A stretch of DNA of 64,000 bases from Cellulomonas sp. NS3 (GTDB lineage Bacteria > Actinomycetota > Actinomycetes > Actinomycetales > Cellulomonadaceae). A model generated the notes under the pieces. The model saw only the letters and a list, made by a program, of their open reading frames with translations, was not told where the DNA came from and made no database searches. The position numbers and the translations under genes are program-made. The stretch spans positions 4,340,001-4,404,000 of the forward strand of contig NZ_CP103289.1 in NCBI RefSeq assembly GCF_024757985.1. The letters are read 5' to 3'. The first letter of the stretch is position 1; each line of letters opens with the position of its first letter. This document shows positions 30,295 to 42,593 of the stretch, in pieces.

Positions 30295-31938
30295 CTACTG
30301 CCAGACGACCACCCATCCCGCGTAGAGATCGCCTTCCTTCACGTGCGCCTTCCCGGCCTGGTCCACGACGCCGATGCGGTTGCCCGACAGCACCAACGAC
30401 GTCAACCCGGTGGCCTCGAGCACCCACGTGGCCCCGAGGGCACCTTCCTTCACGTGCGCCTGACCGTTCTTCAGGATGCCGATGCGGTTGCCCGACAGCG
30501 CCAGCGACGTCACCCCGCTCGTCTGGACGACCCAGTCGGCCCGCAGACCGCCTTCCTTGACGCGCGCCTCACCGCTCTTCGTCAGCACGCCGATGCGGTT
30601 GCCCGACATCACCAGGGACATCACCCCGGGGTACACGACGACCCAGTCGGCCGACAGGCTGCCCTCCTTCACGTGCGCCTCACCGCCGTCGTTGACCACG
30701 CCGATGCGGTTGCCCGACAGCACGAGCGACGTCACGCCGGTCGCCTCGACGACCCAGGGGGCGTACAGGTCGCCCTCCTTGACCCGCGCCTCACCGCTGT
30801 GGGTCAGCACGCCGATGCGGTTGCCCGACAACGCGAGCTCCCGGACGTTCGTGAACACCGGCACGAAGGTGGCGGTCGTCGCGCCGTCCTTGACCCAGGC
30901 GACGCCAGCGGCATCCAGGACCCCGATCCGGGTGCCGTCCACCACGACCTGCTTCGCGTCGGCACCCAGGAGCTGCACCCAGTCCGCCCGCAGGCCACCG
31001 TCCTTGACCTGCGCCCGGCGGTCGTCCGTGACGACCGCGATCCGGGACGCACCGAGCGCCAGCTGCTGCGTGGGCCTCGTGCTCCGGGTGATCCAGTCGC
31101 GGAGGTCGTCGACGCGGGTGTCCGTGGCGGCCTGCCCGGTGGTGCTCGCCCCGAGGCATCCGCCCTGGTCCGCGGTGTGGTGGATCGCGACGAGCTCGAC
31201 CGCGCCCGCGGCGGTGGTGCGCAGTGTCGGGCCGCCGGCGTCGCCCTTGCAGATCGTGGCACCGGGGGAGGCTGCCCGCAGACCGACCGTGGTCGGGTCC
31301 ACGGTGGTGACGGTGTAGGTCGCCGCGTGCGAGACGTCCGGGACCCACTGCGTCGCGGTGCGGCCGTACCCGGTCACGGTGAGCTCCTCACCGGGGACGG
31401 GTGTTGTGGTCGCGACGGCCACCGGGGCCACGGCGGTGACGGGGGTGGCCAACCGGACCAGCACCAGGTCCCGGTCCGGGTGCGGCACGACGAGCGTCAC
31501 GGCCACCGCGTGCCCCGCGGTGCTGGTCAGGTCCGTCCGTCCGACCGTGGCCGTGGTGGGCACCGTCGGTGCACCCTGGGCGACCGCGGCGTCGGGGGTC
31601 GCGGCGAAGCAGGACTTCGCGGTGACGACCCACGACGGGCCCACCAGCGCTCCCGAGCAGGCGCGGACGTCCCCGACGGCGATCTTGACGGTCGCAGCCG
31701 CGGCGGCCGCGGTCGGGGCGCTGCCCTCCACCGCCGAGGCGGCGGGGACCACCCCCGCGGTCAGCGCCAGTGCACCGGCGAGGGTCCGGACGACCCACGA
31801 CCGCCGCACCGAGGCCGCCCCGCGCGCCCGGCTCCGCCTGCCCGACCCCCGCGCCCCTCCGCGCTCGCCGGAGGTCGCGGCCGCGGCTGCGGCTGCGGCT
31901 GCGGCTCGACCTTCCGCCGCTGCGTCGAGCGGCGCCAT
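30295..31938 (-). CDS. Secreted trypsin-fold pseudoprotease with seven ~37-residue C-terminal repeats
   Basis: A 547-residue protein. The N-terminus is unusually long and Ala/Arg-rich before a signal peptide (VVRTLAGALALTAGVVPAASA). The S1-like domain keeps the disulphide cysteines (RACSGALVG...SC, ICKGDAGGP...GGCLG) and the Asp region (RDLVLVRLA). The catalytic His motif TAAHC reads TAKSC (~residue 109), and GDSGGP reads GDAGGP, so two of three triad residues are lost. The C-terminus is seven repeats, RIGVxxxxGEAHVKEGxLxADWV...VxSLxLSGN, suggesting a seven-bladed propeller (inference). ATG 31938 overlaps the previous stop by 1 nt (TGATG), so it is co-translated with the upstream paralog. Probably a secreted binding protein. 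Confidence 0.8.
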   Translation of the reverse strand: MAPLDAAAEGRAAAAAAAAAATSGERGGARGSGRRSRARGAASVRRSWVVRTLAGALALTAGVVPAASAVEGSAPTAAAAAATVKIAVGDVRACSGALVGPSWVVTAKSCFAATPDAAVAQGAPTVPTTATVGRTDLTSTAGHAVAVTLVVPHPDRDLVLVRLATPVTAVAPVAVATTTPVPGEELTVTGYGRTATQWVPDVSHAATYTVTTVDPTTVGLRAASPGATICKGDAGGPTLRTTAAGAVELVAIHHTADQGGCLGASTTGQAATDTRVDDLRDWITRSTRPTQQLALGASRIAVVTDDRRAQVKDGGLRADWVQLLGADAKQVVVDGTRIGVLDAAGVAWVKDGATTATFVPVFTNVRELALSGNRIGVLTHSGEARVKEGDLYAPWVVEATGVTSLVLSGNRIGVVNDGGEAHVKEGSLSADWVVVYPGVMSLVMSGNRIGVLTKSGEARVKEGGLRADWVVQTSGVTSLALSGNRIGILKNGQAHVKEGALGATWVLEATGLTSLVLSGNRIGVVDQAGKAHVKEGDLYAGWVVVWQ

Positions 31939-33368
31939 CACCGGCCGTCCCAGTTGCCGACCAGCGGGGGGTTGTGCGCGTCGCCGTAGATGAAGACGTT
32001 GTCCGGGGCTGACGAGTCGTTCTGGTTGTTCAGGTACCACGTCGCCCCGAGGCGGGCCCCGACGGTGTCGACGCCGTCGCCGTCCCAGTCGCCCACGAGC
32101 GGGGTGTGCTGCGGGTCCCCGTACATGAAGACGTTGTCCGCCGGCGAGGAGTCGTTCTGGTTGTTCAGGTACCACATGGCCCCGAGACGAGCCCCGACCG
32201 TGTCGACGCCGTCGCCGTCCCAGTCGCCCACGAGCGGGGTGTGCTGCGGGTCCCCGTACATGAAGACGTTGTCCGCCGGCGAGGAGTCGTTCTGGTTGTT
32301 CAGGTACCACGTCGCCCCGAGACGGGCCCCGACCGTGTCGACGCCGTCGCCGTCCCAGTCGCCCACGAGCGGGGTGTGCTGCGGGTCCCCGTAGATGAAG
32401 ACGTTGTCCGGCGCGGAGGCGTCGTTCTGGTTGTTGAGGTACCAGGTCGCGCCCCGCCGGACGCCGATCGTGTCGACGCCGTCACCGTCCCAGTCACCCA
32501 CCAGGACCGTGTCGCCCGGCTCGCCGTAGAGGAAGACCTTCTCCGGTGCGGACGAGTCGTTCTGGTCGTTGAGGTACCAGGTGGCACCGCCACGGACGCC
32601 GACCGTGTCGGCCCCGGGGCTCACCTTCGTGTTCTGGTGGACCCAGTCGCGGATGTCGTCCACGCGGGTCTCGGTGGCGCCCTGGGCCGTGGTCGTGCTG
32701 CCGAGGCACCCGCCCTGGGAGGCGGTGTGGTGGATCGCCACGAGCTCGACCGCACCGGTCGCCGTGGTGCGCAGCGCGGGGCCGCCGGCGTCGCCCTTGC
32801 AGATCGTCGCGCCGGCGCTCTCGGCCTCGATGCCGAGCGTTCCGGGGCCGACGAGGTTCACCGTGTAGGTCGCTGCGTGCGCGGTGTCCGGCACCAGCTG
32901 GGTGCTCGTCCGCCCGTAGCCGGTCACGGTCAGCGCCTCCCCGGTGACCGGTGCGGTCGACGCGACCTTGACGGGAGCCACGTCCGGCACGGCGGTGGCC
33001 AGCCGGACCAGGACCACGTCCCGGTCCGCGTGCGGCACGAGCAGCGCAGCCGGCACGACGTGCCCCGCGGTGCCGTCGAGGTCCACGCGCCCGACCGTGA
33101 CCGTCGTGGGCTGGGTCGGTGCACCCCAGCCGACCGCGGCGCCCGGGGCCGCGGCAAAGCACGACGTCGCGGTCAGCACCCACCACGGGCTCACGAGCGC
33201 CCCCGAGCACGCCCGGGCCTCCTTCCCCACCTCGATCCGCACGGTGGCTGCTGCGGCCGGCCCCGTCGGGGTGGAGCCCTGCACCGCGTAGGCGGCCGGG
33301 ACCCCCACGCACGCCAGCGCCACCGCGGTCACCGCGACCCGGATCATCACTCCCCTGCGCACACCCAT
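31938..33368 (-). CDS. Secreted trypsin-fold pseudoprotease with five FG-GAP/VCBS-like repeats
   Basis: A 476-residue protein. The signal peptide (MIRVAVTAVALACVGVPAAYA) is followed by an S1-like domain with the same substitutions as its three neighbours: TATSC in place of TAAHC and CKGDAGGPALR in place of GDSGGP; RDVVLVRLA is kept. The C-terminus holds five 45-residue repeats built on GDWDGDGVDTVGARLGATWY and NNQNDSS, with a DxDGDG calcium-type loop, like FG-GAP/VCBS propeller repeats. The second of two adjacent ATGs (33368) is chosen because it aligns with the start of the 33514 paralog, both behind GAGCAGGG. A secreted Ca-binding adhesion-like role is inferred. Confidence 0.82.
   Translation of the reverse strand: MGVRRGVMIRVAVTAVALACVGVPAAYAVQGSTPTGPAAAATVRIEVGKEARACSGALVSPWWVLTATSCFAAAPGAAVGWGAPTQPTTVTVGRVDLDGTAGHVVPAALLVPHADRDVVLVRLATAVPDVAPVKVASTAPVTGEALTVTGYGRTSTQLVPDTAHAATYTVNLVGPGTLGIEAESAGATICKGDAGGPALRTTATGAVELVAIHHTASQGGCLGSTTTAQGATETRVDDIRDWVHQNTKVSPGADTVGVRGGATWYLNDQNDSSAPEKVFLYGEPGDTVLVGDWDGDGVDTIGVRRGATWYLNNQNDASAPDNVFIYGDPQHTPLVGDWDGDGVDTVGARLGATWYLNNQNDSSPADNVFMYGDPQHTPLVGDWDGDGVDTVGARLGAMWYLNNQNDSSPADNVFMYGDPQHTPLVGDWDGDGVDTVGARLGATWYLNNQNDSSAPDNVFIYGDAHNPPLVGNWDGR
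31941..32615 (-). repeat. 135-bp tandem repeats
   Basis: Five 135-bp units encode the 45-residue repeats of the pseudoprotease above. ACGCCGTCGC, for example, recurs at 32071, 32206 and 32341, exactly 135 bp apart. The central units differ at very few bases, so the array was recently amplified and could be mis-assembled or phase-variable. Confidence 0.85.
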
Positions 33369-33513
33369 CATTCCCCTGCTCTCGTCGTTCGTTCCTCGGG
33401 ACCCGGTCCACGGGCCGGGTGCGTGGCCTCGACGTGCTCCCCGACCAGCCGATCGGGTGTCCTGCAGTTCCTCCGAGCGGCGATCGAACCCTCAGCGCGG
33501 TACCGGCTCCGGA

Positions 33514-34878
33514 CTAGGCGCTGAAGGTGTGGCACCCGAGCACGGTGTTCTCCCCCGGACCGACGTTGATCGCGTACACGCACGCGTAGTGCTCCCCCGG
33601 CGCCAGGTCCCGCGTGTGCACGTACCCCCGCGCCGGGGCGGTGCCGTGCGCGGCGGCGATGTCCGGGCGGTCCAGATCGGCGCGCATCGGCACCCCGGCA
33701 CCGTCGATGTAGACATGCACATCGGTCGGTGCCGACGTGTCCGGGTCCCACGCCCACCCCGTGATCGTCACCCGACCCGCGTCCACCGTCAGCGACTCGA
33801 CCGCACCGACCGGGGTCCGGGTGCCCACCGAGAACGTGTGGCACCCCAGCACGGTGTTCTCCCCCGGACCGACGTTGATCGCGTACACGCACGCGTAGTG
33901 CTCCCCCGGCGCCAGGTCCCGCGTGTGCACGTACCCCCGCGCCGGCGCGGTGCCGTGCGCGGCGGCGATGTCCGGGCGGTCCAGGTCGGCGCGCATCGGC
34001 ACCCCGGCACCGTCGATGTAGACGTGCACATCGGTCGGTGCCGACGTGTCCGGGTCCCACGCCCACCCCGTGATCGTCACCCGACCCGAGTCCACCGTCA
34101 GCGACTCGACCGCACCGACCGGTCGCTCCTGGGTGAGCGTCGCGTTCCAGGCGATCCACTGGCGGAGGTCGTCGAGGCGGGTCTCGGTCGCCCCCTGCTG
34201 CGTGGTCGTCTGCCCCAGGCAGCCGCCCTGGTACGCGGTGTGGTGGATGGCGACCAGCTCGACCGCGCCGGGCGCGGTGGTGCGCAGTGCCGGTCCGCCC
34301 GCGTCACCCTTGCAGATGGTGGCGCCGGGCGCGTCGGCCTGGATGTCGAGGGTTCCCGCACCGACGGCCGCGACCGTGAAGGTGGCGGCGTGGGCGGTGT
34401 CCGGGACCCACTGCGTCGCGGTGCGCCCGAACCCGGTCACGGTCAGCTTCTCCCCGGGGACGGGGGCTGTCGCCGCGACCACGACTCCGGCCACGTCGGT
34501 CACCGGCGAGGCCAGCCGCGCCAGCACGACGTCCCGGTCGGGGTGGGGGACCAGGCGGTCCACGCGCACCACGTGCCCGGCGGTGCCGGTCAGGTCCGGA
34601 CGGCCGACGGTGGCGGTCGTGACGTGCGGCGGAGCCCCGGGGGCCACGACGGCACCGGGAGCGGTGGCGAAGCACGACGCGGCCGTGACCACCCACGACT
34701 CGTTGAGCAGAGCCCCGGAGCACGCGCGGTCCACGCCGATGCTGAGCTTGACCGTCGCGGCTGCGACCGCCCCGCTCGGCACGGCGCCCTGCACCGCCTG
34801 GGCGGCCGGGACCCCGGCGCACACCAACGCCACCGCACCCGCCGCCGCTCGGGCCATCCACGCCCTACGCATGCCCAT
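33514..34878 (-). CDS. Secreted trypsin-fold pseudoprotease with two Ig-like repeats
   Basis: A 454-residue protein. The signal peptide (ARAAAGAVALVCAGVPAAQA) precedes an S1-like domain in which the catalytic His site is TAASC and the Ser site is CKGDAGGPALR; RDVVLARLA is kept. Two almost identical ~100-residue modules follow (PVGAVESLTVD... GWAWDPDTSAPTDVHVYIDG... GEHYACVYAINVGPGEN... LGCHTF). They are predicted beta-sandwich domains with paired cysteines and are often seen in secreted actinobacterial proteins (family knowledge, moderate certainty). ATG 34878 has AGGGA 4 nt upstream. A strong hairpin upstream (35036-35059) separates it from the 35071 gene, so it probably has its own promoter and shares a leader sequence with the 31938 paralog. 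Confidence 0.8.
   Translation of the reverse strand: MGMRRAWMARAAAGAVALVCAGVPAAQAVQGAVPSGAVAAATVKLSIGVDRACSGALLNESWVVTAASCFATAPGAVVAPGAPPHVTTATVGRPDLTGTAGHVVRVDRLVPHPDRDVVLARLASPVTDVAGVVVAATAPVPGEKLTVTGFGRTATQWVPDTAHAATFTVAAVGAGTLDIQADAPGATICKGDAGGPALRTTAPGAVELVAIHHTAYQGGCLGQTTTQQGATETRLDDLRQWIAWNATLTQERPVGAVESLTVDSGRVTITGWAWDPDTSAPTDVHVYIDGAGVPMRADLDRPDIAAAHGTAPARGYVHTRDLAPGEHYACVYAINVGPGENTVLGCHTFSVGTRTPVGAVESLTVDAGRVTITGWAWDPDTSAPTDVHVYIDGAGVPMRADLDRPDIAAAHGTAPARGYVHTRDLAPGEHYACVYAINVGPGENTVLGCHTFSA
33527..34131 (-). repeat. Two near-identical 309-bp direct repeats
   Basis: Copies begin at 33527 and 33836, offset 309 bp. By eye I count about five mismatches over ~295 bp. They encode the two Ig-like modules of the pseudoprotease at 33514, indicating a recent internal duplication or gene conversion. 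Confidence 0.85.
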
Positions 34879-35035
34879 CAGTCCCTGCTCTCGTGTCGTT
34901 CGTCCACCGCACACCTCGCACCCACAGCCCGGCGGCTCGATCCACCGCGCTCTCCCGGGGCCACGCTCCCGAGGAGCGGTCGCCGGGCCGCCGGTCCTGC
35001 CGGCCCCTCCGCCGAGCTGCGGAGGGGGCCGACGC

Positions 35036-35059
35036 CGCCGGGCGGTCTCCCGCCCGGCG
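35036..35059 (-). terminator. Terminator after the 35071 pseudoprotease
   Basis: CGCCGGGCGG (35036-35045), loop TCTC, CCGCCCGGCG (35050-35059), starting 11 nt past the minus-strand stop. A second imperfect stem, CCCCTCCGC/GCGGAGGGG (35004-35027), follows. Confidence 0.7.
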
Positions 35060-35070
35060 ACGCCATGACG

Positions 35071-36681
35071 TCACCGGTTCGGGATCGACCCGAGCCAGGC
35101 CGGAGGGACGTCGACGTAGCGCTTGTTCGCGAGCGCGTCCCACTCCGCGGACGCGAGGAGCCGCTTCGTGCCGCCCTCCACCCGGAAGATGGCGCCCGAG
35201 GTCACGTCGCGCATGAGATGCGACCCGCTGGGCACGGTCCCCGTGACCTGTCCCAGCAGCGTCGCCGGGACGTCCGTGTACGACGGCGAGCCGAGCCGCT
35301 GCCACTCGGCGGGTGACAGGACGTACTTCGCCCCGCCGAGCACCTGGTAGATGCCTCCGGTGCTCCGGTCACGCAGGAGCGCGTACGACGTCGGGACACC
35401 TACGGGGACCCGGGCGATGAACCCCGACGGGACCGTCAGGTACGCCGGCGAGCCGAGCGCCTGCCACTCCGGGAGCGACAGCGGGTACCGCGTGCAGCCG
35501 ACGACCTGGTGGATGACCCCGCTCACGGGGTCACGCAGCAGGACCGGCCCCCCGGGCGCCCCTTCCGGCAGCATCGCGACGAACCCGGCCGGGACGTCGA
35601 CGTAGGCCGGCTGGCCGAGGGCGATCCACTCGTCCTGCGACAGGCGGTAGCGAGCGCCGCTGACGACCCGGTGGATGGCGCTGTCCGGGTCCCGGAGGAA
35701 CGTGTTGTCCCGCGGGGCAGACCGCAGTGAGTCCACGGTCGCCTGCGACACGTCCGTGTAGCCCCGCAGGTTCATCGCGGCCCACTCCGCGTACGACAGC
35801 TCGTACGCGCCGCCGCCCGCGACGAGGAAGATCTTCCCGCTCGGGACCCGGACGAGCTGCCCGTCACCGATGTTGGGGCTCCCCGCCGGCACGACCGGCG
35901 CGGGGGCGCAGTCGGGCCGGATGTTCTGGGTGAGCCAGCCACGCAGGTCGTCCACGCGGGTCTCGGTGGCGCCCTGGGCGGTCGTGGTCGAGCCGAGGCA
36001 CCCACCCTGGGACGCGGTGTGGTGGATCGCGACGAGCTCGAGCGCGCCCCCGCTGGTGCTGCGCAACGCGGGCCCGCCGGCGTCGCCCTTGCAGATCGTC
36101 GCCCCGGTGCTCGCCGCCTGGATCCCGAGCGTGCCGGCGTCGACGAGGTTCACCGTGAACGTCGCGGCGTGCGCCGTGTCCGGCACCCACTGCGTCGCCG
36201 TGCGCCCGTACCCGGTGACCGTCAGCGACTCGCCGACGACGGGAGCGGTGGCCGCCACCGTGACCGGAGCGACGTCGGTGACCTCCTTCGTCAGCCGGAC
36301 CAGCGCCACGTCACGGTCCGCGTGCGGCACGACCACGTCCACGGCGTGGCCGGTCGTGGTGGTCAGGTCGGCGCGGCCGATCGTGACGGTCGTGGGCACG
36401 GCGGGCTTGCCGAGCGGCACCGCCTCACCGGGGGTCGCGACGAAGCACGACTTGGCGGTGAGCACCCACCACGAGTCGACGAGCGCGCCGGAGCACGCGC
36501 GGTCCTCGCCGACGTTGATCTTGACCGTGGCCGCGGCTGCGGGGCCGGTGGGGGTCGCGCCCTCCACTGCGTGAGCGGCAGGGACGCCGACAGCGATGAG
36601 TGCCAGGGCAGCCGCACCGAACCACGCCACTCGCGACGAGAACGGGCGGTGAGGCGCACGCTTCACGTCGTCGCCACTCAC
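35071..36681 (-). CDS. Secreted trypsin-fold pseudoprotease with ~50-residue YxLSxxEW repeats
   Basis: A 536-residue protein. The signal peptide (VAWFGAAALALIAVGVPAAHA) precedes an S1-like domain with TAKSC instead of TAAHC and CKGDAGGPALR instead of GDSGGP; RDVALVRLT is kept. From ~residue 300 come about five ~50-residue repeats of the form LLRDPxSGxIYQVxGGxKYxLSxAEWxALGxPxYxDVP. This repeat type is common in secreted and cell-wall proteins of actinobacteria and is presumably for wall or glycan binding. The GTG at 36681 overlaps the upstream gene's TGA by 4 nt, so it is coupled to the small secreted protein at 36678 and with it forms the operon 37832-36678-35071. Confidence 0.78.
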   Translation of the reverse strand: MSGDDVKRAPHRPFSSRVAWFGAAALALIAVGVPAAHAVEGATPTGPAAAATVKINVGEDRACSGALVDSWWVLTAKSCFVATPGEAVPLGKPAVPTTVTIGRADLTTTTGHAVDVVVPHADRDVALVRLTKEVTDVAPVTVAATAPVVGESLTVTGYGRTATQWVPDTAHAATFTVNLVDAGTLGIQAASTGATICKGDAGGPALRSTSGGALELVAIHHTASQGGCLGSTTTAQGATETRVDDLRGWLTQNIRPDCAPAPVVPAGSPNIGDGQLVRVPSGKIFLVAGGGAYELSYAEWAAMNLRGYTDVSQATVDSLRSAPRDNTFLRDPDSAIHRVVSGARYRLSQDEWIALGQPAYVDVPAGFVAMLPEGAPGGPVLLRDPVSGVIHQVVGCTRYPLSLPEWQALGSPAYLTVPSGFIARVPVGVPTSYALLRDRSTGGIYQVLGGAKYVLSPAEWQRLGSPSYTDVPATLLGQVTGTVPSGSHLMRDVTSGAIFRVEGGTKRLLASAEWDALANKRYVDVPPAWLGSIPNR

Positions 36682-37232
36682 CAGGCACCGAACCGGAGCT
36701 CGACGAGGATCGCTTCCGGCAGCTTGTCGGGGTCGTGACCGGTCTCCACCGGCACGCTCTCGCCTGGCTCCGCCGTATAGACCTGGTCCTTGCCCGGCAG
36801 CTCCGCGGTCGCCGTCACCGTCTCCTCCCCGCCCCGGAAACCGAACGTGTACGGCACCCGCAGCTTCAGGAACCCCCGTTCCCCCGACGTCCGGAAGCAG
36901 AAGTACGCACCGAAGTCGGACTCCTCGAGCTCCGCCTCCACCTGGATCAGGTCCTCGGCGCACTGCACCTCGTCGGTCATTCGCATCGACTTCACGAAGA
37001 CGATGTGCCCGTCACCGGACACAACCTCGAGCTTGTCGCTCGCCAGGATTGCTGCCGCCCCCGGGTAGGCGAAGTCCTCCACCAGCGACGACTGCACCTC
37101 GTCTCCAGCACCCGCCGCAACCGCGGCTCCGCCACCCCCGCCGAAAGCCACGACCGCACCGACTATTACCGCAGCCGACACACCGACCCAGCCCACGTCA
37201 CGCCTCACACGAGTCCCCAATCGTCGACACAT
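36678..37232 (-). CDS. Small secreted protein of unknown family, paralog of the 37284 gene
   Basis: A 184-residue protein with a signal-type N-terminus (VGVSAAVIVGAVVAF, then GAAVAAGAG). The mature part starts DEVQSSLVEDFAYPGAAAIL and contains VQCAEDLIQVEAELE, FCFRTSGERGFLKLRVPYTF and a C-terminal AILVELRFGAW. Two conserved cysteines could form one disulphide. The pattern suggests a small all-beta extracellular domain; I recognise no family. About half of the residues match the neighbour at 37284. ATG 37232 has poor ribosome-site spacing; a GTG at 37208 behind GGGG, aligned with the paralog, may be the real start. Its stop overlaps the start of the pseudoprotease at 35071, so the two are probably made together. 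Confidence 0.65.
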   Translation of the reverse strand: MCRRLGTRVRRDVGWVGVSAAVIVGAVVAFGGGGGAAVAAGAGDEVQSSLVEDFAYPGAAAILASDKLEVVSGDGHIVFVKSMRMTDEVQCAEDLIQVEAELEESDFGAYFCFRTSGERGFLKLRVPYTFGFRGGEETVTATAELPGKDQVYTAEPGESVPVETGHDPDKLPEAILVELRFGAW

Positions 37233-37283
37233 CCTGAAAAGCTCTCTCGATCAACGCGACGTCTGTCTGCCGGCTCCGTCCGT

Positions 37284-37832
37284 TCACCACGCGCCGAAAC
37301 GCAGCTCGACCAAGATCGCTTCCGGCATCTTCTCGGGGTCACGGTTGGGGGCGACCGACTTGAACTCCCCGGGCTCTGCCGTGACCGTCACGTCCGGACC
37401 CGGCAGCTCCGCCGTGGCCGTGACCGTTTCCGACCCGCCCCGCAGGGAGTACGTGTACGGCACTCGCAGCTTCAGGAAGCCGCGCTCGCCCGACGTCCGA
37501 AAGCAGTAGCGCGAGCCAGTTGGAGCGTCTTTCACATCTGCTGACACCTGGATATGGTCGTCCGCGCACTGCACGTTCTCCCTGACGCTGAGGATGATCG
37601 AGGAGTCGAACTCGATGTGACCGTCACCCGAGATCACCTCCAGCCCGTCGCTCGCCAGGATGTCCGCTGCCCCCGGGTAGGCGAAGTCCTCCACCAACGA
37701 GGATTGCACCTCACCCTCGGCGCCGTCCGCAGCAACGGCCGCTCCACCGCTTCCCAGGGCGACCGCAACACCGGCCAGCATCAGTACCGATGCGCCCATC
37801 CAACCCACAACGACACGCCTTGACTTCAACAT
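37284..37832 (-). CDS. Small secreted protein of unknown family
   Basis: A 182-residue secreted protein and tandem paralog of the 36678 gene. The signal peptide is VVVGWMGASVLMLAGVAVAL with cleavage likely after GAAVAADG. Shared blocks with the paralog include EVQSSLVEDFAYPGAA, the cysteine in VQCADDHIQV, YCFRTSGERGFLKLRVPYTY, GSETVTATAELPG and the identical C-terminus EAILVELRFGAW. ATG 37832 follows GGAG at good spacing. The 51-bp gap to the next gene and the overlaps after it make 37284-36678-35071 an operon. It lies right after the immunity gene of the polymorphic toxin. Function is unknown; a partner of the pseudoproteases is a hypothesis only. Confidence 0.68.
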   Translation of the reverse strand: MLKSRRVVVGWMGASVLMLAGVAVALGSGGAAVAADGAEGEVQSSLVEDFAYPGAADILASDGLEVISGDGHIEFDSSIILSVRENVQCADDHIQVSADVKDAPTGSRYCFRTSGERGFLKLRVPYTYSLRGGSETVTATAELPGPDVTVTAEPGEFKSVAPNRDPEKMPEAILVELRFGAW

Positions 37833-37932
37833 GGCACTCCATTCATATCTGAGTTCCCCATCACTACGTGGGGCGTCGTCGGCGCGTCACGTCTGGCGAT
37901 GCATCGACGCCCCTGCGGTCGTCGCGGCCTGC

Positions 37933-38436
37933 TCAGCCCCCGTCGGGGTGTGGCGACAGTCCCATCTCGTCGAGCCATCGTCGGAGCGGGGCCTCCTCCT
38001 GGACTGAAGGATCGGCCTCGGAACCGCACAACCGTCGGAGCTCCTCGAAGAACTCGATGCCCGCGCGCGCGACCGTGACATAGAGCTTGTCGGCGGGCGC
38101 GACGGCGCGTCGATCGATCGATCCGTCCGGCGTCGTGACCCTCAGCAGAAGATCGGCCCCTCCCCGAAGTGCGCTCGCCCCGAAGTAGATCCCCTGACTA
38201 GGGAACGCTCTCTGGCCGGAACCTGAGCGGCGGCACTCGTCGAGCGCTTGCACGACGAACGGCCACAGCCAGTTCACGTCGTCCCACAGCGTCACGCCCA
38301 TCAGCTCGACGCCGTCCACGGTCAGGCTGATCGCACCCGGAACCCAGCGGCAGCTGTCGTCATGACGCTCAGCGTCACGGATGGGGCGGAACTCGCCGTC
38401 GACTCTCACGTAGCTCGCTGCGGTGACCTCGTTCAC
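37933..38436 (-). CDS. Putative immunity protein of the polymorphic toxin
   Basis: A 167-residue cytosolic, soluble protein of no family I recognise, with acidic patches and motifs such as DDVNWLWPFVVQALDECRRSG and FFEELRRLCGSEAD. The immunity role is inferred from position: its GTG start (38436) overlaps the toxin stop codon by 4 nt (GTGA), the standard toxin-immunity layout, and it is small, leaderless for secretion and less GC-rich than its neighbours. It should bind the EndoU-like tip in the producing cell. Alternative: an unrelated hypothetical gene. Confidence 0.6.
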   Translation of the reverse strand: MNEVTAASYVRVDGEFRPIRDAERHDDSCRWVPGAISLTVDGVELMGVTLWDDVNWLWPFVVQALDECRRSGSGQRAFPSQGIYFGASALRGGADLLLRVTTPDGSIDRRAVAPADKLYVTVARAGIEFFEELRRLCGSEADPSVQEEAPLRRWLDEMGLSPHPDGG

Positions 38437-41400
38437 TGCCCCGCCCCCGGGGGGTAGAACTGACCGATCCGCCCGTTGTTCACACCGAGAATGTAGGTGA
38501 CGCCGTTGACCTCGCCCGTGAATTGCTTCGTGCCCAAGCCGATGGCCGCCAGCTCGTCCCGGTTCTGTTCGATGACCGCGGCCAACGTCGCCTCTACGTC
38601 GGCGATCGACATCGACCGATCGAAAAAGTCGGTCCTACCCTTGATCTCACCCTTCCAGTACCTCGGGTGATGGCGTTCCAAGATGTGCGTAAATCCCGCT
38701 ACATCGAGGTCGAACGCCCAATTTCCGCAATAGAATAGCCGTTCTTCCCAGTCGCTTAGGTCCAGGATGCACGTCTCATCATTGTGAACGAGGATCTCGT
38801 CCACGCCGACATGAAAGGTGTCGACATCTTCGACGTCGAGGTTGTAGGCCAGGCCTTGCCGCTCCGTACCCGCGCGGAGTCCGTCGACCGCCAGCGTCTC
38901 GCCATCGGCGGTCAGGACCTGCTCGCCCGGCGCGAGCTCGTCCGCCCGCTCGAAGCGCGCGTCCGTAACTGACCAGAACGGGTGGTCCTCGGTCGTACCC
39001 ACGATCGCGCCGTTGCGGAATGCGAGATTGGTGAGAGTGTCCTCGTGGACGAACACGTGGGTGACCTCGCGCGCGCCCTGCTCACCCGTCTCGGGATCGG
39101 TGGCGATGACGTCGTCCTCTACTGCGACCTCGTCAATCGGCTTCCGCGACCCGTCGGCCATCAGGATGAGGGTGCTTCCCGCGAACGAGCAGGCGAGCTC
39201 CGCTGCTTCCTTGAGCTGGCGTCGCAGCTCTGTGAGCCGGTCAAAGGTTCGCACGGCGCTCGTGGAGGTGCGACGGACCTTTATCGCCCCGGTCACCCAA
39301 CCCAGAGGCCCAAGGACAGAAGCAAACGAGAGGGCGGCGCCAGTCTTGTCTCCTCGACCGAGAAGAATGAATGCACCGAAGAGGTCACATCCCTCGGCAG
39401 GGCCGCTGAAAAATCCGCATGCGGTAAGGCCGAGGTCGAGGACATCGGCGCCCAGTTGTAGGAACAGTTCAGGGTCGGCTTCTGCGAGCTCTACGAGGTC
39501 TCGGACGAATCCCACCGATCTGCATGTGCCCTTGACGTCCGGAGCCCACGGGTTGCAGCTCCCCGCAGAGATGACGACCTCTCCAAGCGTGATGGCTGCC
39601 TCTTTACAAGCTGGCCAGACATCTCTCGTGGTGAGCCCAACCAGGCAGTTGGCGCTCCGAAAGTCGTCGTTCGCGGTTCCGGTGCCACCCTGACCGGTTC
39701 CAGGAGCGGTGCTGCGCATTGCCGCTGCGCGCTGGGCGAGCCGTGTGATGTAGGCCGCCGTCGCCGCCTGGGCAGCCTGGTTGGCCGCGCTCGCGTCCTT
39801 GCCCGCGGCCGTCGCGGCCTCCCGCGCCGACTGCTTGGAGCGCTGCGCGGACGCTGCATCGGCCTTCGCGCGCTTCGCCGCGGCCGACGCCGTAACCATC
39901 GACTGAGCGGCGTTGTCCGCGCTGACTCGCGCCTTCGCGGCGGCGTCCTTCGCGGTCTGCGCGGAGGACGCCGCCTGGTCGGCGGACGCCTTCGCAGCGG
40001 CGGAGGACTGGCTGGCCTCGGCCGCGTAGGTGGCGGCTTGGCTGGCCGCCGCTGCGGCCTGGCTCGCGGAGGTCCTGGCGTCGTCGGCGGCGCCCTGGGC
40101 GACGGCGGCGACGCGGCGCGCCTCGGCTGCGTCGACCAGTGCGGTCTGGGCGTAGTGCTGCGCCTCGGAGATCAGGGCGTCCACGGTCCGAACGTGGGCG
40201 ACCTGCTCGGCGTCGCGTTGAGCGGCTTCGTACTGGCCGACGGCCAGGAAGTAGGACGCATAGGAGACCGGTCCAGCCAGGGCGATCTGGGCTGCGGCCT
40301 TGACCTCCGGGCCGGCATCGTCCATGACCTGGTTGATCGCGATCTCCCGGTCGAGGGCTCGCGCCGTGTGCTGCCCGGTCCGCAGGAATTCGCTGACCTG
40401 CGCACTGGTTCCCGCCAACGCCTTCTGAGCCGCGGCAGCCACCTTCGGTCCGGGCTGCTCGGCGAGGATCCGGGTGACCGCCCGTCGGTCGTCCACCGTC
40501 TTGCGTGGATAGGCCCGCGTACGCAGGAACGTCGCCACCGCCGCGTCGTCCCCGTCCAGGGACGCCCGAGCAGCGGTCTTCTGCTGCCCGTCGGGCAGCG
40601 TGTCGACCAGGTGCCAGACCCGGACTCGGTCGTCCTGCCCCGCAGCGAGTGTGCGGCCCTGCGTCAGCCAGGAGCGCAGCACGGCCTCGTCCCCAGCGAG
40701 CGCCTCCGCCGCGGCGGCCTTGGTCCACTCCCCACCCGTGCTCATCAACGCCAAGGCGGCCTTGCGACCGGAGTCCAGCACCGCCTCGCTGGAGGCGCCC
40801 TCCTTCATGGCCGCATCGAGCAGACTGCGGGTCTCACCCGGGATTCGCGCCTCTTCCGCGGTGTCCCACAGCACTCCCCGGTCCCACGCGGCCGACTCCG
40901 CGTTCGCCTTGTTGGCAGCGATCTCCGCCTCGGCGGCAGCTTTCGCGTCCGCTAGGCCGTGCGCGGTTGCCTCGGCCAACCGAGCCTCGTCGGCCTCGCG
41001 TGCCATCTTCCTCACGATCGTCGCCTGCCCGGCGGCCTCCACCGCGAGCTGAGAGGCCGCAGTGGCGTCCGCGGCGTGCGCGGCCGCCTGCTCCGCCGCC
41101 TGCTCCGCCGCTCCCGCATGGGTCGCGGCGGCTGTGGCGGCGGCCGCTGCGCGGAACGCGTGGTTCCCGGCCTCCTCCGCGAGACGGAACGCCTCGTTCG
41201 ATGCGGCTGCCGCCGCCTCCGCGAACCCGAGGGCTCGCTGTGCCGCCTGCTCCGCCTGCGCCGCCTGCAACTTCGCCGCCCCGGCCGCGTCCCTCGTCCG
41301 CTTCGCCTGCGCCGCAGACACCCCGGAGTGCCGAGACGCCCGGTCGGCCGCCTCCGCAGCCGCGATCGCGTTCCTGCTGGCGCTCACCGCGGACGTCGCT

Positions 41401-42593
41401 GCGTCATAAGCCTGTGTCAGCGACTCAGCCTGCTGGGCCCGGGCCTGCGCGAGGATCGCCGCCTGCTCCGTGGCTTTCTGCGCCGCCTCCGCGGCGGCCC
41501 GGGCCGCAGCCGCTTTGCTGCCATCCATCCGCGCCGCAGCCGCAGCCGAGTGCGCCGCGGCCGCCGCCCGGGCCGTCATCGATGCAGCCGCCGTGGCCTT
41601 GCGCGCCCCGTCCGCAGCCGTCTGTGCCGCCCGCAGCGCCGCACTCGAGGCCACGACCGCCTCCGACGCGGCGCCCTCAGCAGAGCTCGCGGCGTCCGCC
41701 GCCCGGCCCGCCGCCACCGACGCCCCCGCCGCCGCTCCACCGGCTGCCTGAGCCTCAGCCTCGGCCTCCTGCGCCGCAGCCTTCGCCTGTGCCGCCCCGC
41801 TCACCGCCCGGCCCGAGGCCTCCGCCGCCGATGCCGCCTCCGTCGCGGTCGTCGCACCAGCCTGACGAGCCTGGTCTGTCAGCTTCCCGATCTCGGCGAT
41901 CTCGCCGTCGCGCGCTCGCGCGACGAACTGACCTCGCACGATGAACGCATGCAGCTCCTCAGGGGACCCCTTCAACGCCGCCTGCGCCGCTGCCGCCAGG
42001 AGCGGACCGCTGCTGTTGGACGAGTCCGCCAGCATCGTCTCGGCCAGCATCTCCTCGTCGAGGTGCTGCGCCTCGGCCAGCCCGGAGTACAGGAAATCCG
42101 ACCACGCCGCAGACTCACCAGCCAATGCCTCGCGAGCCGTGGCCTGCACCTTGGGCCCACCGCTCTCCAGCGCCCGCATCACCCGAAGACGCTCATCGCT
42201 GACCCAGGCCGCGCGGAAGCCCCCGTCAGCAAAGGCCCGCAGCTCCTCCTCCGGCCCCTCCAGCACCCGCAACGCTGCCCGCCTCAGCATCGGACCGTCC
42301 GTGCTCGCCAGCACCTGCACCGACGCCCGGTAGTCCGCATCCGTGGCCTCGTCGAAACCCGACTCGACGAACGCCGCGAAGTCGGCCTCCGACCCGAGCA
42401 ACGCCGCCTCGGCCGCCCGTCGGACCGACGGCGTCCCCTCGGCGACCAATGACACGGCCCACAACCGGGTGCGAGCGGTGTCAGCCGACGCGTCGTCCGC
42501 CACAGCCGCAGCGCCAGGCGCTCCGCCCACCGTGACCCCGAGCACCACCGCGACCAGACCAGCAACCAACGACCGCCATGCCGTGCGCGCCAC
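38433..42593 (-). CDS. Polymorphic toxin: ALF-like/Ala-rich repeats, HINT domain, EndoU-like tip
   Basis: A 1386-residue secreted protein. The signal peptide is RSLVAGLVAVVLGVTVGGAPGAAA. Two blocks of short ALF-type repeats (xxALxGxxAxVxxFLxxG, ~residues 50-225 and ~580-800) flank long Ala-rich coiled-coil segments (~230-560, ~800-950). A linker with a few hydrophobic stretches leads to a HINT autoprocessing domain (residues 1135-1272) opening CSFAGSTLILMADGS and closing EILVHND. The 114-residue C-terminal tip has FTHILERHHPRYWKG, TDFFDRS and VNGVTYILGVNNGRIGQFYP, resembling bacterial EndoU ribonucleases. GTG 42593 follows GGGGAG. The tip has far lower GC (63 of 120 bases G/C at 38641-38760) than the repeats, a sign of module exchange. 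An immunity gene overlaps its end. Confidence 0.82.
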   Translation of the reverse strand: MARTAWRSLVAGLVAVVLGVTVGGAPGAAAVADDASADTARTRLWAVSLVAEGTPSVRRAAEAALLGSEADFAAFVESGFDEATDADYRASVQVLASTDGPMLRRAALRVLEGPEEELRAFADGGFRAAWVSDERLRVMRALESGGPKVQATAREALAGESAAWSDFLYSGLAEAQHLDEEMLAETMLADSSNSSGPLLAAAAQAALKGSPEELHAFIVRGQFVARARDGEIAEIGKLTDQARQAGATTATEAASAAEASGRAVSGAAQAKAAAQEAEAEAQAAGGAAAGASVAAGRAADAASSAEGAASEAVVASSAALRAAQTAADGARKATAAASMTARAAAAAHSAAAAARMDGSKAAAARAAAEAAQKATEQAAILAQARAQQAESLTQAYDAATSAVSASRNAIAAAEAADRASRHSGVSAAQAKRTRDAAGAAKLQAAQAEQAAQRALGFAEAAAAASNEAFRLAEEAGNHAFRAAAAATAAATHAGAAEQAAEQAAAHAADATAASQLAVEAAGQATIVRKMAREADEARLAEATAHGLADAKAAAEAEIAANKANAESAAWDRGVLWDTAEEARIPGETRSLLDAAMKEGASSEAVLDSGRKAALALMSTGGEWTKAAAAEALAGDEAVLRSWLTQGRTLAAGQDDRVRVWHLVDTLPDGQQKTAARASLDGDDAAVATFLRTRAYPRKTVDDRRAVTRILAEQPGPKVAAAAQKALAGTSAQVSEFLRTGQHTARALDREIAINQVMDDAGPEVKAAAQIALAGPVSYASYFLAVGQYEAAQRDAEQVAHVRTVDALISEAQHYAQTALVDAAEARRVAAVAQGAADDARTSASQAAAAASQAATYAAEASQSSAAAKASADQAASSAQTAKDAAAKARVSADNAAQSMVTASAAAKRAKADAASAQRSKQSAREAATAAGKDASAANQAAQAATAAYITRLAQRAAAMRSTAPGTGQGGTGTANDDFRSANCLVGLTTRDVWPACKEAAITLGEVVISAGSCNPWAPDVKGTCRSVGFVRDLVELAEADPELFLQLGADVLDLGLTACGFFSGPAEGCDLFGAFILLGRGDKTGAALSFASVLGPLGWVTGAIKVRRTSTSAVRTFDRLTELRRQLKEAAELACSFAGSTLILMADGSRKPIDEVAVEDDVIATDPETGEQGAREVTHVFVHEDTLTNLAFRNGAIVGTTEDHPFWSVTDARFERADELAPGEQVLTADGETLAVDGLRAGTERQGLAYNLDVEDVDTFHVGVDEILVHNDETCILDLSDWEERLFYCGNWAFDLDVAGFTHILERHHPRYWKGEIKGRTDFFDRSMSIADVEATLAAVIEQNRDELAAIGLGTKQFTGEVNGVTYILGVNNGRIGQFYPPGAGQ

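Follow-up and report, generated by a model that had tools for sequence, protein, structure and literature searches.

A probable umbrella toxin locus with four UmbA genes in a Cellulomonas-lineage actinobacterium

Why would a bacterium carry four tandem genes for secreted trypsin-fold proteins that share the same dead catalytic site and end in four different C-terminal modules? Such an array lies at positions 30295-36681 of a 64,000-nucleotide stretch of the Cellulomonas sp. NS3 genome (NZ_CP103289.1, positions 4,340,001 to 4,404,000; the window), where a first-pass annotation had read it as a scaffold or binding protein without catalysis, the variable C terminus being the part that recognises a ligand. 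That annotation overlooked the upstream genes at 36678-42593, which explain the array, and a second locus of this kind elsewhere in the genome (C1:1.633-1.639 Mb). We consider it very probable, at about 95%, that positions 30295-42593 of the minus strand are the umbrella toxin locus of a Cellulomonas-lineage actinobacterium, with the particle assembly and delivery proposed below. The locus belongs to an already described system, in which the domain and role of UmbA were known before (PMC11062931, PMC13274773), so that the annotation's remark that the domain might not be new was correct. A literature text search on umbrella toxin and Cellulomonas, in matches seen in part and with supplementary locus tables not covered, found no description of the present locus.

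The UmbA, UmbB and UmbC proteins of the locus are identified by sequence comparison. All genes lie on the minus strand in the order umbC-umbD-umbB1-umbB2-umbA1-umbA2-umbA3-umbA4. The first, umbC (38433-42593), encodes a secreted ALF-repeat polymorphic toxin of 1386 amino acids, and its product matches 8w20_A, the UmbC of the Streptomyces coelicolor Umb1 particle, at a phmmer E value of 5.1e-87; the alignment spans residues 24-955, including the Ala-rich stretches that separate the two ALF sets and follow the second. The start of umbD (37933-38436), a putative immunity gene, overlaps the umbC stop by 4 nucleotides. The adaptor protein encoded by umbB1 (37284-37832) matches 8w20_B, an UmbB, at E 2.3e-7 and nothing else at E <= 10, and umbB2 (36678-37232) encodes a second adaptor that is 65-68% identical to it. 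The two UmbB genes are the second and third after umbC, and the published definition of an umbrella locus places UmbB within ten genes of UmbC (PMC11062931). They are followed by umbA1 (35071-36681), umbA2 (33514-34914), umbA3 (31938-33371) and umbA4 (30295-31938); the umbB2 stop overlaps umbA1 by 4 nucleotides if umbA1 begins with the GTG at 36681, and umbA4 overlaps the umbA3 stop if it begins with the ATG at 31938. Among solved structures, the top matches of UmbA3 were 8w20_C (E 1.4e-44) and 9oee_A (1.5e-35), from entries titled as the Umb1 umbrella toxin particle and UmbA4 complexes, with the other listed S1 proteins at 1.5e-6 or weaker. Fold modelling also supports the identity of the UmbA1 trypsin domain, S. 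coelicolor UmbA4 (9oee) being the second-best structural match of the UmbA1 model.

The closest known system is the Umb1 particle of S. coelicolor (UmbA1, UmbB1, UmbC1; PDB 8w20, 8w22), to which the likeness extends by sequence over UmbA, UmbB and UmbC. Whereas S. coelicolor has one UmbA gene per locus plus orphans, the present locus has four, together with two UmbBs, other C-terminal modules and a non-streptomycete host. Umbrella loci have been reported from 875 species, more than half of them Streptomycetaceae and the rest from six other orders of Actinobacteria (PMC11062931, PMC13274773).

All four UmbAs pass the Pfam Trypsin cut-off (E 7.8e-16 to 9.6e-19). The usual S1 motifs are TAAHC around the His and GDSGGP around the Ser. 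Here, the corresponding motifs and the Asp strand between them read TAKSC, DRDVALVRL and GDAGGP in UmbA1, TAASC, DRDVVLARL and GDAGGP in UmbA2, TATSC, DRDVVLVRL and GDAGGP in UmbA3, and TAKSC, DRDLVLVRL and GDAGGP in UmbA4. We aligned 52 UmbA-like frames, two of them fragments, from the window and 29 other stretches (the two frames of L037 were excluded, this being the same region as L090). The Ser of TAxSC falls in the His57 column and the Ala of GDAGGP in the Ser195 column, while Asp102 is retained in all four UmbAs of the window; in place of the His57-Asp102-Ser195 triad of active S1 peptidases (PF00089), all four have Ser at 57 and Ala at 195. Translations, Pfam and alignment thereby bear out the annotated array of four tandem trypsin-fold genes with TAxSC and GDAGGP and a conserved Asp. 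Across the 52 rows, position 57 is Ser in 45, Asn in three, Thr in two, Ala in one and a gap in one; position 102 is Asp in 44, Asn in seven and a gap in one; and position 195 is Ala in 41, Thr in eight, Gly, Ser and a gap in one each. The Arg aligned with the UmbB contact is present in 51 rows, including all four of the window, with a gap in the last. Within the sampled relatives, the catalytic His would thus always have been lost and the UmbB-contact Arg never. A single row, L090:9956-11329 (G185), carries an intact GDSGGP, with Ser still at the His position.

The retained fold, cysteines and Asp102 are what might be expected if the trypsin domains were active proteases that use other residues. 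We regard this as extremely improbable, since His occurs at position 57 in none of the 51 relatives and Ser at position 195 in only one, and protease activity was not detected for S. coelicolor UmbA1 or UmbA5 (PMC11062931). The genome itself offers a control. It has eight Trypsin-family places, namely five UmbAs, L104, in which no catalytic motif was found, and two further proteins that keep TNNHV and GNSGGP and that we take to be HtrA-like. Database names would instead make the four proteins secreted esterases of the FusH type: the NCBIfam fusidic acid esterase model (NF000157) matches all of them with E values of 1.1e-51 to 5.1e-46, and the PDB names UmbA chains 'Secreted esterase', a misleading name for a dead domain. 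The scores, however, are 157-176 bits against a model cut-off of 999, and with both the His and the Ser of the triad replaced no S1-type hydrolase site is left, which makes an esterase scarcely credible.

In S. coelicolor, UmbA trypsin domains with an incomplete triad bind the UmbB N terminus without cleaving it, and the C-terminal lectins of UmbA set target-cell specificity (PMC11062931, PMC13274773). The A-V-E-D motif of UmbB contacts the UmbA groove, a bridge being predicted between its Glu and Arg156 of UmbA1, and substitutions there abolished binding (PMC11062931). The counterpart in the window, read from the translations, is L-V-E-D, encoded on the minus strand at 37686-37697 in umbB1 and 37074-37085 in umbB2. 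The salt-bridge Glu is present in both UmbBs, and a groove Arg in all four UmbAs; this is the Arg of GYGRT/GFGRT, and it matches Arg156 of 8w20_C as counted along the UmbA3 alignment. The earlier proposal of a non-catalytic scaffold with a variable recognition end gains support by analogy with the homologous S. coelicolor UmbAs.

By the same analogy with S. coelicolor, which underlies what we propose for assembly, spoke number, missing protease activity, glycan binding and killing, the ALF repeats of UmbC would form a ring carried by a stalk with a HINT-linked toxin tip at its end, and UmbB adaptors would be seated on the ring. The dead groove of each UmbA trypsin domain would grip the extended UmbB N terminus through L-V-E-D, Glu to groove Arg, and this clamp would leave every spoke tipped by a C-terminal module of one of the four kinds. 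As there are four UmbAs for an expected five spokes, mixed-arm particles could arise that address several target-cell surface glycans and deliver one toxin. An apparent curiosity would then become a specific and testable weapon, with four arms, two adaptors and one toxin encoded at a single locus outside Streptomyces.

The four proteins could also be independent secreted pseudoproteases, acting as adhesins or glycan-binding proteins, with umbB and umbC nearby by chance. Their modules do resemble surface-binding repeats, and unlinked UmbA genes are known in S. coelicolor (PMC11062931). Of the 30 stretches (the window and 29 others), 19 yielded the complete set of UmbA, UmbB and UmbC, and in the remaining 11 one or both partners were not found. 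Tight gene packing, in which umbA1 probably overlaps the stop of umbB2 and umbA4 that of umbA3, speaks against chance proximity, as do the recurrence of the gene set in the sister species and others (the 19 stretches) and the groove Arg in 51 of 51 relatives, and we judge independent pseudoproteases to be very unlikely. UmbA matches occur in 16 of the 221 genomes of the family searched; four-UmbA arrays are found in three of these 16 (the window's genome G000, the sister species G001 and G045), G037 has three UmbAs, and other UmbA-bearing genomes have two adjacent ones, although arrays may have been broken up in those of the 16 whose assemblies are fragmented. Among relatives that bear a species name, Cellulomonas cellasea (86%) is the closest. 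The four-gene array that the first-pass annotation singled out is real, but shared with two further genomes.

In UmbC, Pfam ALF (PF03752) matches eight stretches at E 4.8e-53 in two sets of four, repeats 1-4 at 41919-42458 and repeats 5-8 at 40224-40766 (both on the minus strand, as are the other features of UmbC). The weakest is ALF6, with 25.7 bits over profile positions 16-38 only. In S. coelicolor, UmbB is not bound by ALF1, 5 and 6 (PMC11062931), and the weakness of ALF6 here agrees with its status there as a non-binder and, by analogy, with five spokes. A pretoxin HINT domain follows at 38778-39167 (residues 1143-1272; PF07591, E 1.3e-13; 2lwy_A, E 7.5e-17), and then a C-terminal toxin tip of about 115 amino acids at 38436-38780. 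The tip differs between relatives and the ring is kept. An UmbC is defined as a secreted protein with two sets of four ALF repeats, two coiled-coil stretches and a C-terminal toxin, and the present one fits this layout with the coiled coils putative. The best structural matches of the tip model are the CdiA-CT toxins 7m5f and 5e3e, likewise small toxins with an immunity partner, which gives a weak lead towards an RNase with an EndoU/RelE/CdiA-CT type of fold. The umbD product has no match in Pfam or NCBIfam, known immunity families included; a 31% identical homologue lies directly behind the homologous toxin tip in another genome (G467) and, with the umbC overlap, makes umbD a putative immunity gene. 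In G467 (L095), the same toxin tip and immunity pair follows a HINT-like protein which, as far as its visible part goes, is no UmbC, and the pair therefore seems able to pass from one delivery system to another.

The C-terminal modules of the four UmbAs, all on the minus strand, differ in kind. That of UmbA1, whose signal peptide was recognised by eye, lies at 35074-35916 and has five units of about 54 amino acids, four with an exact YxLSxxEW and one degenerate; in the structure model, block values of the predicted local distance difference test (pLDDT) are 72-94 from residue 231 onwards, where a strand-strand-strand-helix pattern repeats. UmbA2 has two GWAWDPD units of 103 amino acids (33517-34140), UmbA3 about five FG-GAP-like units of 45 amino acids, four with an exact GDWDGDGVDT (31941-32621), and UmbA4 seven units of about 37 amino acids with seven RI[GA][VI] and seven VK[ED]G motifs (30298-31068). 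The two UmbA2 units are 92% identical and neighbouring UmbA3 units 82%, a similarity that points to recent internal duplication of units in both modules. An UmbA is defined by an incomplete triad and a C-terminal lectin-like part, and these proteins with their different repeat modules fit that definition with the lectin nature putative; by analogy, the modules would bind target-cell glycans. S. coelicolor UmbA4, solved with a teichuronic acid-like glycan of S. griseus (PDB 9oee), likewise has a trypsin domain followed by a target-binding part, which there is a 6-bladed propeller with an extra lectin domain; none of the window's four modules, searched alone, matched it at E <= 1.

Several points weigh against an umbrella particle. 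What is known of the locus here comes from sequence comparison and structure models, and the UmbB match is modest. No twin-arginine motif was seen by eye in the UmbC N terminus, whereas one has been reported for S. coelicolor UmbC. The modules are poorly anchored in databases: that of UmbA1 had no PDB match at E <= 1; that of UmbA2 had no Pfam match, and its best PDB matches, to gelation factor, had insignificant E values of 0.096-0.22; that of UmbA3 matches FG-GAP below the Pfam cut-off; and the only above-cut-off Pfam matches of the UmbA4 module are LRR_6 (29.8 against 23.4 bits) and LRR_1 (21.7 against 20.6). We took a leucine-rich repeat identity of the UmbA4 module to be chance, because the matches span only 12-17 residues in LxLSGNRIGV repeats and no stretch passes alone. 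The rod repeats of gelation factor are Ig-like. The annotated module types hold as four different repeat modules, but an Ig-like nature of UmbA2 is not established and FG-GAP in UmbA3 is below threshold. The alignment sample was collected with the window's own dead domain, so that active relatives may be under-sampled. The 11 stretches in which one or two partners were not found include some short contigs, but also G106 and four Micromonospora stretches, several of them with 10 kb flanks. These may be loci with orphan UmbAs, or their partners may be too distant for the profiles, which were built from the window and which distant UmbB and UmbC can escape.

The sister species G001 carries a four-UmbA locus with the same order and the same four modules, its UmbAs pairing one to one with those of the window (trypsin domains 83-90%, modules 75-93% identical). 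In contrast, one UmbB was found there against two in the window, and its UmbC is only 65% identical in ring and stalk. Where the DNA could be aligned, identity per kilobase is 86-95% in the flanks, 70-74% in umbC and 69% in umbB2; the toxin tip, HINT, immunity gene and umbB1 gave no DNA alignment. Near 36.5 kb identity drops over about 150 bases, and near 42.5 kb over about 300-450. Differences at four-fold sites are 0.12-0.36 in five flanking genes and 0.12-0.40 in UmbA, as against 0.38-0.49 in UmbB (from just 41 and 47 sites) and 0.55 in UmbC. From the DNA identity step and the four-fold sites, the simplest reading of these sequences is that one lineage has exchanged its umbC-umbD-umbB stretch for another and kept its arm array. 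The four-fold contrast is not clean, however, with UmbA2 (0.40), UmbA3 (0.30) and one flanking gene (0.36) also raised, and the UmbC tree is undecisive: it separates the window from G001, but grouping them is not rejected (approximately unbiased test, p 0.102). Arms and toxin would then change independently in the sister pair, as the published bet-hedging model would predict.

For modules and trypsin domains, free shuffling was our first expectation. On a tree of the trypsin domains (50 rows, the two fragments excluded; module labels of 46 rows in nine clusters), labels change 17 times. The minimum is eight, and 1000 shuffles averaged 31.1 changes, with none below 25, so that in most cases a module stays with its trypsin domain. 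Artefacts may account for some of these 17 changes, as cluster 0 is a loose single-linkage group with members down to 28% identity, and 15 of the 47 inner branches were drawn open for low support. Grouping in one clade was nonetheless rejected for all four clusters tested of the nine: RIGV (p 1.1e-4), cluster 3 (2e-73 as printed), YxLSxxEW (0.012) and cluster 5 (0.003, using only two of its four members). The data are thus mixed, with label changes far below those of shuffled trees, and support occasional domain swapping or gene conversion between modules and trypsin domains.

The second umb locus of the genome (G000:C1:1633392-1639000, L023) has one UmbA with a WYYPHNG module, one UmbB and one UmbC, the latter with a different tip from that of the window. 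Elsewhere, at C1 4689033-4690193 (L047:5034-6194, minus strand), a secreted protein of 386 amino acids carries five ALF repeats, and a xylanase-like frame (by eye) adjoins it. Compared with the 16 repeats of the two UmbCs, its repeats have their best matches in ALF2, ALF3, ALF7, ALF7 and ALF7; ALF1, 5 and 6, which do not bind UmbB, are the best match of none of them, the UmbB-binding status being carried over from S. coelicolor by position. The protein ends in an Ala/Pro spacer, LAATG, a hydrophobic stretch and RRRRRA, LAXTG being the signal that actinobacterial class E sortases recognise (PMC5148588). A literature text search on ALF repeat, sortase and Actinobacteria gave no 'ALF repeat' paper among the matches listed. 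We tentatively suggest, as a possibility we hold to be rather unlikely, that the lineage uses UmbA arms in two ways: as a fixed four-arm kit beside an umbC-umbD-umbB cassette that is replaced by diverged versions with other toxins, and on a wall-anchored ALF protein that docks UmbB-UmbA on the producer's own wall. Such docking could display lectins, provide a place of assembly or act as a sink that protects the producer and, if true, a wall-anchored protein with repeats of the UmbB-binding type would give umbrella parts a new function. A further short ALF protein, a 521-amino-acid frame with three ALF matches, stands beside UmbB and UmbA in another genome (L089:11383-12945, G183) and may be either a shortened UmbC or an ALF carrier in its own right.

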